Assembly: GCF_014195485.1 (NCBI RefSeq)
Contig: NZ_JACIBU010000001.1
Location: 2,046,001-2,110,000, forward strand
DNA from: Modestobacter versicolor
GTDB lineage: Bacteria; Actinomycetota; Actinomycetes; Mycobacteriales; Geodermatophilaceae
DNA: 64,000 nt
Direction: 5' to 3'
Shown here piece by piece: positions 30,416 to 33,455 of the stretch (positions within the stretch are counted from its first letter, which is position 1; each line of letters begins with the position of its first letter). The notes beneath the pieces were generated by a model. It had not been told where the DNA came from, ran no database searches, and saw nothing but the letters and a program-made list of their open reading frames with translations. A program made the translations under genes and the position numbers.

Positions 30416-31573
30416 TCAGATCCAGTCGCGGCGCTTGAACACGACGTACAGCACCACGCTGACGAGGCCCATCAGCACGACGGCCATCGGGTAGCCCAGC
30501 CGCCAGTCCAGCTCCGGCATGTGGGTGAAGTTCATCCCGTAGACCGTGCCGACCAGGGTGGGCGCGAACAGGATGGCCGCCCAGGCGGAGATCTTCTTGA
30601 CCTCCTCGCCCTGGGCCAGCGACGTCTCGGTGAGCTCGCGGATCTCCTCGTTCTGCCGCTGGGCGACCAGCGTGGCGTTCACGGTGAGGATGTCGCGCAG
30701 CTGCAGCCGGAAGCCCTCCACCCGCTCCACGACCTGGGTCACGTGGTCGGCGACGTCGCGCAGGTAGCTGCGCAGCTCCTCGTCGACGCCGTACTTCTCG
30801 AACCCGGCGGAGATGGCGGCGAGGATCCCGGTGAGCGGCTGGGCGGCCCGCTGGAAGTCCACGACCTCCTGGGACAGCTCGTAGATGCGCCGCGAGGCAC
30901 CGGGGTCGCCGCTGAAGACCTCGACCTCGATCTCGTCGATGTCGTTCTCCAGGCCGGCGACCACCGGGGCGTACCCGTCGACGACGGCGTCCAGGATCGC
31001 GTAGAGCACCGCCTCGCTCCCCCGGGCCAACAGGTCCGGCGAGCTCTCCAGCCGGCGGCGCACCCGGGACAGGTCCGGCGACTCGCTGTGCCGGACGGTG
31101 ATCGCGAAGTCCTTGCCGAGGAACAGGTGCAGCTCCCCGAACTCCACCTCCTCCTTGGCGTCGAGGTACCGGGCGGCCTTGAGGACGACGAACAGCGTGT
31201 CGCCGTACCGCTCGAACTTCGGCCGCTGGTGGGCCTGGATCGCGTCCTCGACGGCCAGGTCGGGCAGCCCGTACTGCTCGGCGAGCTCGCCCAGCTCCGC
31301 CGGGTCGGGCCGGTAGAGCCCCAGCCAGACCATCCGGTCATCGAAGCCGTCGGTCAGCCACTCGTGGCTCTCCGCCGGGGTGGCGGGGGTGGCGATCCGC
31401 CGGCCGCCGGCGTAGACGGCGTTGTCGACCACGCGCGACGGCCGCTCGGCGGCGGTCACGACCGGGGCGGGCCGGTCCGGCAGGCGCGCCGGGACGACGG
31501 CGCGCGGCCGGCGGGTGAGGGTGGACAGGGCGGCGCGCGGTGCGCTGCGCGCGAGGCGACGACGGTCGGACAC
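30416..31573 (-). CDS. corA: CorA-family Mg2+/Co2+ channel
   Basis: 385 residues. The N-terminal cytosolic domain (LYRPDPAELGELAEQYGLP to FGKDFAITVRH-like strand) leads to a long stalk helix and two C-terminal helices. The CorA signature YGMNFTHMPEL (GMN) sits between them, and the basic C-terminus is FKRRDWI. CorA pentamers admit Mg2+ and are gated by cytosolic Mg2+. The first 60 residues are a Pro/Arg-rich extension. The GTG start at 31573 has GGGAG upstream. The 259-base leader holds a well-formed small ORF with proline codons, suggesting Mg2+-responsive attenuation. Confidence 0.94.
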   Translation of the reverse strand: MSDRRRLARSAPRAALSTLTRRPRAVVPARLPDRPAPVVTAAERPSRVVDNAVYAGGRRIATPATPAESHEWLTDGFDDRMVWLGLYRPDPAELGELAEQYGLPDLAVEDAIQAHQRPKFERYGDTLFVVLKAARYLDAKEEVEFGELHLFLGKDFAITVRHSESPDLSRVRRRLESSPDLLARGSEAVLYAILDAVVDGYAPVVAGLENDIDEIEVEVFSGDPGASRRIYELSQEVVDFQRAAQPLTGILAAISAGFEKYGVDEELRSYLRDVADHVTQVVERVEGFRLQLRDILTVNATLVAQRQNEEIRELTETSLAQGEEVKKISAWAAILFAPTLVGTVYGMNFTHMPELDWRLGYPMAVVLMGLVSVVLYVVFKRRDWI

Positions 31574-31659
31574 GACGGACTCCCGGGAGGGCGCTGGGGC
31601 AGGGACGCCGGAGCGGTCCCCGCACGCCGCGCCGCCGGGTCAGGCGTCGACCGGGAGCG

Positions 31660-31707
31660 TCAGCAGGAGGGGACCTCGGGACTGTGACTGGGGGGCTCGG
31701 TGCGCAT
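31660..31707 (-). CDS. 15-codon proline-rich leader peptide ORF upstream of corA
   Basis: The frame reads MRTEPPSHSPEVPSC, with four prolines in fifteen residues, and stops at 31662-31660. Its ATG has a near-perfect ribosome binding site (GGAGGTGA, 31723-31716) 8 bases upstream, the best in this part of the window. It ends 86 bases before the corA GTG. The gap can fold a hairpin with the pairing GCGGGGAC to GTCCCTGC. In Salmonella, mgtA and corA have leader peptides (mgtL, corL) whose translation sets transcription of the channel gene; mgtL works through proline codons at low Mg2+. The same logic here is inference. Confidence 0.6.
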   Translation of the reverse strand: MRTEPPSHSPEVPSC

Positions 31708-31806
31708 CTGCCCGGTCACCTCCCGACGTCCTGGGTGCCCCGGCTGGTCCGCGGGCCGTCGTCCATCGTGACACGCCCGGCCGGACCCGGGCACCCCCGC
31801 CGCCCG

Positions 31807-31827
31807 ACCGGGTGGTGAACACCCGGT
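31807..31827 (-). terminator. short hairpin after the DASS carrier gene
   Basis: An 8-bp stem (ACCGGGTG at 31807-31814, CACCCGGT at 31820-31827) with a 5-base loop, beginning 5 bases past the carrier stop codon. Confidence 0.5.
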
Positions 31828-31832
31828 GCCGG

Positions 31833-33455
31833 TCAGCCGCCCGGCGTGCCCAGCACGAGGTCGATCATCACCGGCAGCAGGACCACGATGAGCAGCGCGC
31901 CCAGCACGTCGAAGGAGAAGCCGCTGCGGATCATCTTGGTGATCGGGACGACGCCCGAGCCGTAGACGATGGCGTTCTGCGGGGTCGAGACCGGCAGCAT
32001 GAACCCGAAGGACGCCGCGAAGGTGGCCGCGAGCGCGGGGACGAACGGGTTGACCCCGGCCGCCATCGCCACCGGGATGATGATCGGCACGACCACGGCG
32101 GCCGAGGCCGTGTTGCTCGTCGTCTCGGAGATCAGGATCGCCAGCAGCACCGCGAAGACGGTGATGGCGAGGGTGCTGGTCAGGCCGAGCAGGTCGGCGG
32201 ACCCCTCACCGATGGTCAGCGCCAGGCCGGTGTCGTCGAGCAGCGAGCCGAAGACGATGCCCGTGCCGAACAGCACCACGGTGCCCCAGTCGATCTTGGC
32301 GGCGTCGCTCCAGACCAGGGTGTACTCCCGGGCCTTCCAGTTCGTCGGGAGCACGAAGAGCAGGGAGGCACCGAGGACGGCGACGATCCCCTCGTTGAGC
32401 CGGCCGCTGACGGTCTCGTACAGGCTGGACTCGGTGCCCGCGGTCAGCGCGATGATGCCGGGGAAGATCCACAGGAAGACCGTGATCCCGAAGGCGATCA
32501 GGGTGTTCCGCTCGGCGGTGGAGAAGCGGCCGAGCTCGGCCCGCTCGGTGCGGACGTACTCGCTGACCCCCTCGATCCGCCGGATCTCCGGGCGGTTGAG
32601 CAGCAGCAGCACGAAGGCCAGCGCGCAGAACATCAGCAGGCAGATGGGCAGCGCCATGAGCATCCAGTCCAGGAAGCTGATCCGCTCCCCGGTCGCCTCC
32701 TCGATCAGCCCGCGGCCGATCAGGTTCGGCGGCGTGCCGACCGGCGTGAGCAGCCCGCCCACGCTCGCGCCGTAGGCGAGCATCAGCATCAAGGCCACGC
32801 CCACCCGGAGCCGGAGCGGGTCGAAGTCCTGCTCGACCAGGCCCTTGCTCTGCAGCAGCTTGGCGATCACCGAGAGGATGCCGATCGCGGTCGGCAGCAG
32901 CATCGCCACGGTCGCGGTGTTGGACACGAAGGCCGACAGCATCGCGGTGATCGCACCGAAGGCGATGACCACCCGGTAGGTCGACGTGCCGACCCACCGC
33001 AGCGACAGCACGAACATGGCGAACCGCCGGGCCAGACCGTGCTTCAGCATCGCCTGGGCCAGGATGAAGGCGCCGATGAACGTGAACACGGTCGTCGAGC
33101 CGAACGGCGCCACGGCCTCGTCGGCCGGGACGACGCCGAGCACGACGATCGCCCCGATCCCGATCAGGCCGCCGATCGGGATCGGCACCGGCTCGGTGAT
33201 CCACAGGACGATGACGCCGAGCAGGATCGCGGCGAGCAGGTGCTGCTGCCGCGGCAGGTCCAGCGGCACCAGCGCCACCACCAAGGTCACGGCCGGGGCG
33301 AGGAACAGCCCGATGGTGCGGCGGCCCTTCTCGAACCGCTCCTCCGCCGGGCTGAGGGTCTGCTCGCCGAGGCTGCGGTAGGTCGCCGATCCGAGGAAGG
33401 CCGCGTCGACGTCCGTCCGGGCCGGCTGCTGGGGACCGCGCTCGGTGGTGGTCAT
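31833..33455 (-). CDS. DASS/SLC13-family anion:Na+ symporter
   Basis: 540 residues with about 12 membrane helices. Both substrate/Na+ hairpin motifs are present: GGLLTPVGTPPNLIG (SNT-like first clamshell) and SETTSNTASAAVVVPI (second SNT). These define DASS carriers for C4-dicarboxylates, citrate, sulfate or related anions. The N-terminal 50 residues are hydrophilic. The ATG at 33455 has GGAGGG upstream. It is transcribed toward corA but separated from it by a hairpin, so the two are probably independent units. Confidence 0.93.
   Translation of the reverse strand: MTTTERGPQQPARTDVDAAFLGSATYRSLGEQTLSPAEERFEKGRRTIGLFLAPAVTLVVALVPLDLPRQQHLLAAILLGVIVLWITEPVPIPIGGLIGIGAIVVLGVVPADEAVAPFGSTTVFTFIGAFILAQAMLKHGLARRFAMFVLSLRWVGTSTYRVVIAFGAITAMLSAFVSNTATVAMLLPTAIGILSVIAKLLQSKGLVEQDFDPLRLRVGVALMLMLAYGASVGGLLTPVGTPPNLIGRGLIEEATGERISFLDWMLMALPICLLMFCALAFVLLLLNRPEIRRIEGVSEYVRTERAELGRFSTAERNTLIAFGITVFLWIFPGIIALTAGTESSLYETVSGRLNEGIVAVLGASLLFVLPTNWKAREYTLVWSDAAKIDWGTVVLFGTGIVFGSLLDDTGLALTIGEGSADLLGLTSTLAITVFAVLLAILISETTSNTASAAVVVPIIIPVAMAAGVNPFVPALAATFAASFGFMLPVSTPQNAIVYGSGVVPITKMIRSGFSFDVLGALLIVVLLPVMIDLVLGTPGG

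Follow-up and report, generated by a model that had tools for sequence, protein, structure and literature searches.

A Conserved Glu-Pro-Pro-Ser Leader Peptide Upstream of corA in Geodermatophilaceae, Probably a Ribosome-Based Magnesium Sensor Separate in Origin from That of Salmonella

Does the short ORF in the corA leader of Modestobacter versicolor encode a leader peptide through which the ribosome controls a magnesium channel gene? The question was raised by an initial annotation of the window, by which we mean the whole stretch of 64,000 nucleotides that was analyzed, and the features on which it was based were all read again in the sequence: a 15-codon ORF, MRTEPPSHSPEVPSC, with a strong ribosome binding site and four prolines, two of them adjacent, whose start lies 134 bases 5′ of the corA start and whose end is separated from corA by a gap of 86 bases (Table 1). 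The identity of the downstream gene was established by a match to the Pfam family CorA (PF01544, E 1.2e-60) and by the YGMNF motif present in its translation, while the upstream neighbour is a sodium:sulfate symporter-family transporter gene ending at 31833. Simple consensus scans of positions 31300–32100 yielded neither a sigma-70 promoter nor an intrinsic terminator (a G+C hairpin with a run of U after it, ahead of corA), and the block TGTCACGAT may, from its sequence, represent an extended −10 element. An M-box or any other Rfam RNA was ruled out as the identity of the leader, with no Rfam match up to E 1 within 31000–32400, M-box / ykoK (RF00380) included.

Table 1. Features of the corA leader and their positions in the window.
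Feature	Position	Strand	Basis or remark
Leader ORF MRTEPPSHSPEVPSC with stop TGA	31660–31707	minus	Sequence; start ATG 31707–31705, stop TGA 31662–31660; kept in 87/90 family corA leaders
Leader ORF ribosome binding site GGGAGGTGA	31716–31724	minus	Sequence; 8 bases before ATG
Glu-Pro-Pro-Ser core GAG CCC CCC AGT, proposed pause/abort site	31687–31698	minus	AGT = 31689–31687
P1 5′ strand GGTCCCC, within leader ORF	31669–31675	minus	Pairs with 31621–31615; covariation, 64 leaders
P1 3′ strand GGGGACC	31615–31621	minus	First six bases double as P2 5′ strand
P2 3′ strand GTCCCT	31601–31606	minus	Support weaker than that of P1
corA ribosome binding site GGGAG	31580–31584	minus	Sequence
corA, 385 aa, GTG start at 31573, CorA-family Mg2+ channel	30416–31573	minus	ORF and Pfam
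Block TGTCACGAT, possible extended −10 promoter element	31765–31773	minus	Kept across 19 aligned genus leaders

The absence of a small ORF from related corA leaders had been named as evidence against the idea, and the ORF proved to be present: an in-frame start followed by Glu-Pro-Pro-(Ser/Gly/His) was observed in 87 of 90 corA leaders of the host family Geodermatophilaceae, a sample made up of 19 genus loci, 11 further loci and 60 fetched stretches. In two of the three misses the contig breaks off (146 and 162 bases), and each of these genomes has a start with EPPS close to the terminus of a different contig. The third, L169, has N near the corA start and an intact leader, MRSEPPSHSPEVPAA, ~1 Mb off on the same contig, so that an assembly (scaffold) join is likely there; the distance of ~1 Mb between corA and its leader within one assembly (L169 and L272, G106) probably reflects such a join. 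When the fixed pattern of a start plus EPPS was searched in 112 family genomes, 71 of them gave a total of 73 matches, against a single match for the reversed control pattern, and two stray matches (G003, G008) have no ribosome binding site. A chance ORF is ruled out by the 87 of 90 leaders and by the 73 matches against one. The only match of the pattern in the host genome is the leader studied, and the leader of the second corA paralogue of that genome (L002) has no visible EPPS ORF.

Substantial variation around the core was observed among the 87 motif-bearing leaders, which contain 82 distinct ORFs. Their starts are ATG (46) or GTG (41), their stops TGA (70), TAG (15) or TAA (2), and their lengths range from 9 to 25 aa, with 15 aa in 51 of them and with a variable C-terminus. 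The sequence GGAGG precedes 82 of these ORFs, and GAGG or GGAG precedes three more. The Glu of the motif is the fourth codon in 78 leaders, while nine carry extra codons ahead of EPPS and three (L008, L170 and L171) lack one codon after it. The expectation of the initial annotation that the ORF, its prolines and its ribosome binding site are kept while bases drift thus holds for the ORF, the Pro-Pro pair and the ribosome binding site, but not for the other two prolines of MRTEPPSHSPEVPSC, which vary within the family; the conserved part is Glu-Pro-Pro-Ser.

The codons of the core are as distinctive as its residues. The motif Glu is encoded by GAG in 40 leaders and by GAA in 47, the first Pro by CCC (24), CCT (36), CCG (26) or CCA (1), and the second Pro by CCC (77) or CCG (10). 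The third positions of the Glu-Pro-Pro codons vary freely, which indicates that it is the leader peptide that is under selection. The fourth codon is AGT in 85 leaders, GGT in one and CAT in one, in a search that permitted these three codons only, a choice made once L018 and L159 had been inspected visually; Ser is always encoded by AGT (85/85), and no AGC was found as the fourth codon in an earlier scan of the family leaders that permitted AGC too. In the 30 corA genes of the same loci that served as a reference, AGT accounts for only 1 of 508 Ser codons, GAA for 14 of 1056 Glu codons (47/87 at the motif) and CCT for 10 of 657 Pro codons (36/87 at the motif), and NNT codons make up 1.5% of all codons. 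Codons of this kind are generally slow and read by G:U wobble. Both EPPG variants found, L018 of the family and L172 at the class level, use GGT, and the EPPH leader L159 has an AGT two codons further on, so that AGT itself may still have a specific role. Overall, a fixed peptide core is written in unusually rare codons, and T is the last base of the codon that follows Pro-Pro.

The RNA around the ORF was then considered in an alignment of 64 of the 87 leaders, those with a gap of ≤100 nt, which excludes most leaders with inserted repeat elements. Consensus folding of the 19 genus leaders and of the 45 others, carried out separately, gave in both cases a stem, P1, between the tail of the ORF and a downstream strand. 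Over the 64 leaders, 82.5% of the P1 cells are paired, compared with 78.9 ± 0.7 after shuffling and with ≤60.8% in slid versions. Cells changed on both sides number 45 against 19.5 ± 7.0 in shuffles (0/500), counted, as for P2 below, as sequences and not as independent events; two other measures are less extreme, with 7 double-change pairs against 4.5 (16/500) and 18 further pair types against 15.4 (49/500). Across all 87 family leaders, the complementarity of the P1 strands has a mean z of −1.72 relative to shuffles, with 45% of the leaders at p ≤ 0.05. Both P1 strands are swapped in L111, which lies outside the alignment, AAGGACCTC being matched with GAGGTCCTT, and L114 has a variant in which CCG is paired with CGG.

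The 3′ strand of P1 can instead pair with a strand nearer corA, giving a second stem, P2, that is paired in 79.9% of cells over the 64 leaders (slid versions ≤68.3%), with 21 cells changed on both sides against 13.9 ± 2.5 in shuffles (2/500) and with a mean z of −1.03 for the local folds of 61 of the 64 leaders. Since both stems use alignment columns 94, 95 and 101–104, P1 and P2 are mutually exclusive. Measured from an anchor chosen by the script, the common strand is 45–47 nt away from the corA start, on its 5′ side, in 44 of the 61 leaders. In 64 of the 87 leaders, 10–11 nt separate the EPPS codons from a GGTCC-like start of P1. These comprise 60 of the 78 leaders whose N-terminus is standard and 4 of the 9 in which it is extended; in the other five of these nine, the simple pattern matches at 3–4 nt (four) or at 8 nt (one). 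A constant EPPS-to-P1 spacing regardless of N-terminal length was therefore borne out in part. Repeat-like hairpins were seen right after the leader ORF in the family corA leaders L119, L126, L131, L138, L142 and L147, and in L128, L133 and L154; these elements, GGACCCCGTCC or its like and AAGGACCACCCTT...GAAGGGTGGCC, apparently take the place of P1 or lengthen it.

In a wider survey that reached other actinobacterial orders, a short ORF with [ED]PPS was found ≤600 bases upstream of a corA match in 19 of 80 named actinobacterial corA loci, the carriers including Modestobacter, Goekera, Klenkia, Blastococcus, Micromonospora and Streptomyces, together with Arthrobacter, Luteimicrobium, Nocardioides, Myceligenerans and two MAGs. 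The corA leaders of Kribbella have a related ORF with ...SEPSR... or ...SDPSR..., and many of the 80 named leaders have no EPPS ORF. In a class draw of 344 genomes, 44 contained the start plus EPPS pattern, 46 times in all, whereas its reversed form matched 12 times. Judged by coordinates and downstream ORFs, 19 of the 46 stand before corA (our own included) and five before mgtE, while neither gene was recognized downstream of 22. As 90 genomes of the draw have a corA match at E 1e-90 and only 19 pattern matches precede corA, most corA leaders in the draw do not fit the pattern.

The five matches before mgtE lie in five genomes, three belonging to a single genus (f2/g14) and two to f19/g35; they represent five of the 30 mgtE loci read, and their ORFs are MRSEPPSRRPRGAAPSHTR, MRSEPPSRRPRGAVLPRFR, MRSEPPSRRPRGATPSYCR, MRSEPPSPAPRGNALSLR and MRSEPPSHHPPRRAGPPPR. 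The downstream gene of one of them (L224) was identified as MgtE by Pfam (PF01769, PF03448 and CBS), and those of the other four by similarity to it. One of these mgtE leaders, MRSEPPSRRPRGAAPSHTR, is very similar to MDGEPPSRMPRGAAPARTR, which precedes corA in Streptomyces samsunensis. CorA and MgtE have unrelated folds, and the function common to them is Mg2+ transport. The leader therefore tracks Mg2+, and its presence before a second, unrelated Mg2+ channel gene strengthens the magnesium link. The initial annotation had proposed Mg2+ attenuation through proline codons; the competing stems and the mgtE leaders speak for the attenuation, but conservation centres on Glu-Pro-Pro-Ser, in which the Ser codon is rare.

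The stems were also compared outside the family. In 34 such leaders, P1 has a mean z of −0.47, not clearly above shuffles, and seven leaders fall below −1.65, these being the three f2/g14 mgtE leaders (z −3.0, −3.4 and −2.3) and the corA leaders L031, L044, L098 and L174. Micromonosporaceae-type and Streptomyces leaders fold into a stem equivalent to P1; among 13 Micromonosporaceae-type leaders no compensatory change in P1 was found, and the number of P2 cells with a change on each side is four, compared with 1.3 ± 0.9 in shuffles (5/500). With the outside-family tests being weak, P1 is well supported only within the family and, from three sequences, in the f2/g14 mgtE leaders.

Other conserved ORFs were noticed in the leaders of these channel genes. 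Five mgtE leaders of f20 (L239, L242, L243, L247 and L253) contain an ORF of the form ~MR.RS...D[AS][ED]P.HS with CAT AGT codons, and in L239 and L243, among 18 sources scanned, an Rfam M-box lies beside this ORF in the same leader; this ORF is a candidate for a second Mg2+ leader of the acidic/proline type, combined in these two with a riboswitch. Three mgtE leaders of f17 (L237, L252 and L255) carry, ~350–395 nt upstream, a short conserved ORF with an acidic pair, ..KNDD.ALV..WR, possibly a third leader type. The Frankia corA leaders L052 and L058 share a conserved ORF without EPPS, MSPGHS..LSW.GSATPAA.

We favor the reading, with a probability of roughly 60%, that the EPPS leader belongs to a ribosome-mediated, Mg2+-sensing attenuator controlling corA. 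The leading edge of a ribosome lies ~15–16 nt beyond the first base of the P site, and with this footprint a ribosome positioned with its P site at Pro6 and its A site at Ser7 would stop short of P1. At low Mg2+, ribosomes would pause or drop off at Glu-Pro-Pro before Ser, and a ribosome held there would let P1 form and P2 be broken, so that corA would be expressed (P1 = ON). At high Mg2+, ribosomes would reach the stop codon and cover the 5′ strand of P1, upon which P2 would form and corA would be turned down (P2 = OFF). Since a ribosome at the stop codon covers P1, pausing or drop-off at EPP would favor P1 and full translation P2, and the assignment of ON and OFF would follow if low Mg2+ makes ribosomes pause or drop off here as it does at the EPDP of MgtL and at the acidic codons of mgtQ; the direction and the output of the switch are inferred. 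A point against the attenuator reading is that the EPDP of MgtL contains more acidic residues than the core, which has only one.

The output might be transcription termination, possibly by Rho, or reduced initiation at corA. The 30 nt before the corA ribosome binding site are C-rich (C 0.56, G 0.21 in 64 leaders), a composition that would suit Rho. Sequestration of the corA ribosome binding site was tried as the output and set aside, as its opening energies with the ribosome at EPP|S and at the stop codon showed no consistent trend, differing in one direction in 34 leaders and in the other in 30. For the broader proposal the odds seem about even: class-wide "EPPS leaders" would form a portable module before CorA and MgtE, with Glu-Pro-Pro and a wobble-read NNU codon as the sensor, codon choice and nascent peptide would together set the Mg2+ sensitivity of the ribosome, and the origin would be independent of the enterobacterial mgtL.

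Translation itself could be what the leader senses, whether through charged tRNA-Pro or tRNA-Ser, an EF-P or EttA-like factor or the state of the ribosome, the channel being merely regulated in turn as ribosomes bind much of the cellular Mg2+. Pro-Pro with rare codons is a generic pause signal, and mgtP responds to charged tRNA-Pro according to the available text of PMC8092293; tRNA sensing, however, explains neither the strict Glu before Pro-Pro nor the association with Mg2+ channel genes of two families, and just one Pro-Pro is conserved, which makes this reading unlikely. That the ORF only boosts corA translation by delivering ribosomes, through reinitiation or unfolding and with no sensing, would agree with its strong ribosome binding site and the 86 nt gap, and leader-peptide reinitiation has been proposed in bacteria (PMC4833913, as far as its text was available). 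A conserved core of rare codons would be needless for such a role and should, we infer, cut the flow of ribosomes, and we accordingly hold delivery to be quite improbable.

There is a slim chance that the leader is an RNA element, a riboswitch or a protein site, in which the ORF is incidental and the conservation of AGT and the P1 strands serves the RNA. AGT is indeed nearly invariant as nucleotides and P1 covaries, but the free third positions of Glu-Pro-Pro, the alternating start codons, the codon-sized insertions and deletions and the kept stop codons count against it, as does the lack of any Rfam match up to E 1. A functional micropeptide, for instance a partner of CorA, would account for the conserved N-terminus; the spread from 9 to 25 aa within the family, the variable C-terminus and the occurrence of the same core before the unrelated channel gene mgtE leave it with hardly any likelihood.

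Among the papers listed in our literature searches, for which the coverage of subscription journals was partial, none describes an actinobacterial corA or mgtE leader peptide of the EPPS kind. Two papers on leader peptides that cover Actinobacteria (PMC4833913 and PMC1262725) contain no corA, mgtE or magnesium in the main text as available, and corA and magnesium are unmentioned in the accessible portion of a reannotation of S. lividans (PMC8079986). A survey of 50 genomes from 2024 gives, in the part at hand, eight uORF candidates and nothing on corA, with an mgtE motif confined to Thioalkalivibrio (PMC11109978), and an mgtQ-like ORF has been noted in Brucella too (PMC8092293, available text). 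In the literature found, ribosome-based control by Mg2+ through a nascent leader peptide is known from enterobacteria. If the attenuator reading is true, the EPPS leader would be a second and probably independent case, in a distant phylum and before two unrelated channels, which would suggest that bacteria make general use of the ribosome's Mg2+ requirement as a sensor. A sharp test would then be possible with the four-codon core, the extreme codon choice and the natural variants (EPPG, EPPH, one-codon deletions and N-terminal extensions).

The layout known from mgtL, corL and mgtQ, that is, a conserved ORF with its own ribosome binding site, an early acidic/proline motif and mutually exclusive stems, was found in the EPPS leader. 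Like mgtL, which has EPDP, it is a short ORF with an early acidic/proline motif before an Mg2+ transporter gene, as far as the sources at hand describe mgtL. In Salmonella and E. coli, aborted or inefficient translation of mgtL switches mgtA on (PMC11282234 and PMC11552253, in the parts available), and low Mg2+ leads to pausing or drop-off at the EPDP of MgtL (PMC11282234, same limit). The two differ in that mgtL is enterobacterial, precedes the P-type ATPase gene mgtA and encodes another peptide, while the EPPS leader is actinobacterial, has one Glu and a rare-codon Pro-Pro, and precedes corA or mgtE, its Mg2+ role being a predicted one. The corL of Salmonella and E. coli is likewise a small ORF within the leader of corA, where alternative stems can form, and its translation opposes corA expression; unlike the EPPS leader, it starts with UUG (in E. 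coli) and its conserved N-terminus contains only one proline, and it is set apart here by this description (PMC11552253, accessible text).

An actinobacterial leader linked to Mg2+, with a conserved small ORF, is also found at pe20 of M. tuberculosis, where an RNA aptamer, the M-box, senses Mg2+ and controls the ORF (PMC12810186, as available), whereas the EPPS corA leader has no M-box. The closest architecture is that of mgtQ before mgtB in Salmonella, a very short ORF that carries a destabilising motif early on and is accompanied by mutually exclusive stems close to the ribosome binding site of the transporter gene; acidic codons in mgtQ cause pausing or drop-off at low Mg2+. It differs in lying inside an operon, in encoding 8 aa and in relying on Asp2 and Glu5 rather than on its Pro codon (PMC8092293, in the text at hand). 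The resemblance of the EPPS leader to mgtL, corL and mgtQ is one of layout, a likeness of mechanism, drawn by analogy, that would not imply kinship. The initial annotation had left the choice between a convergent and an ancestral case, and convergence with Salmonella is likelier than common ancestry given that peptide, gene partner and phylum all differ, so that the leader is probably a ribosome-based magnesium sensor separate in origin from that of Salmonella.
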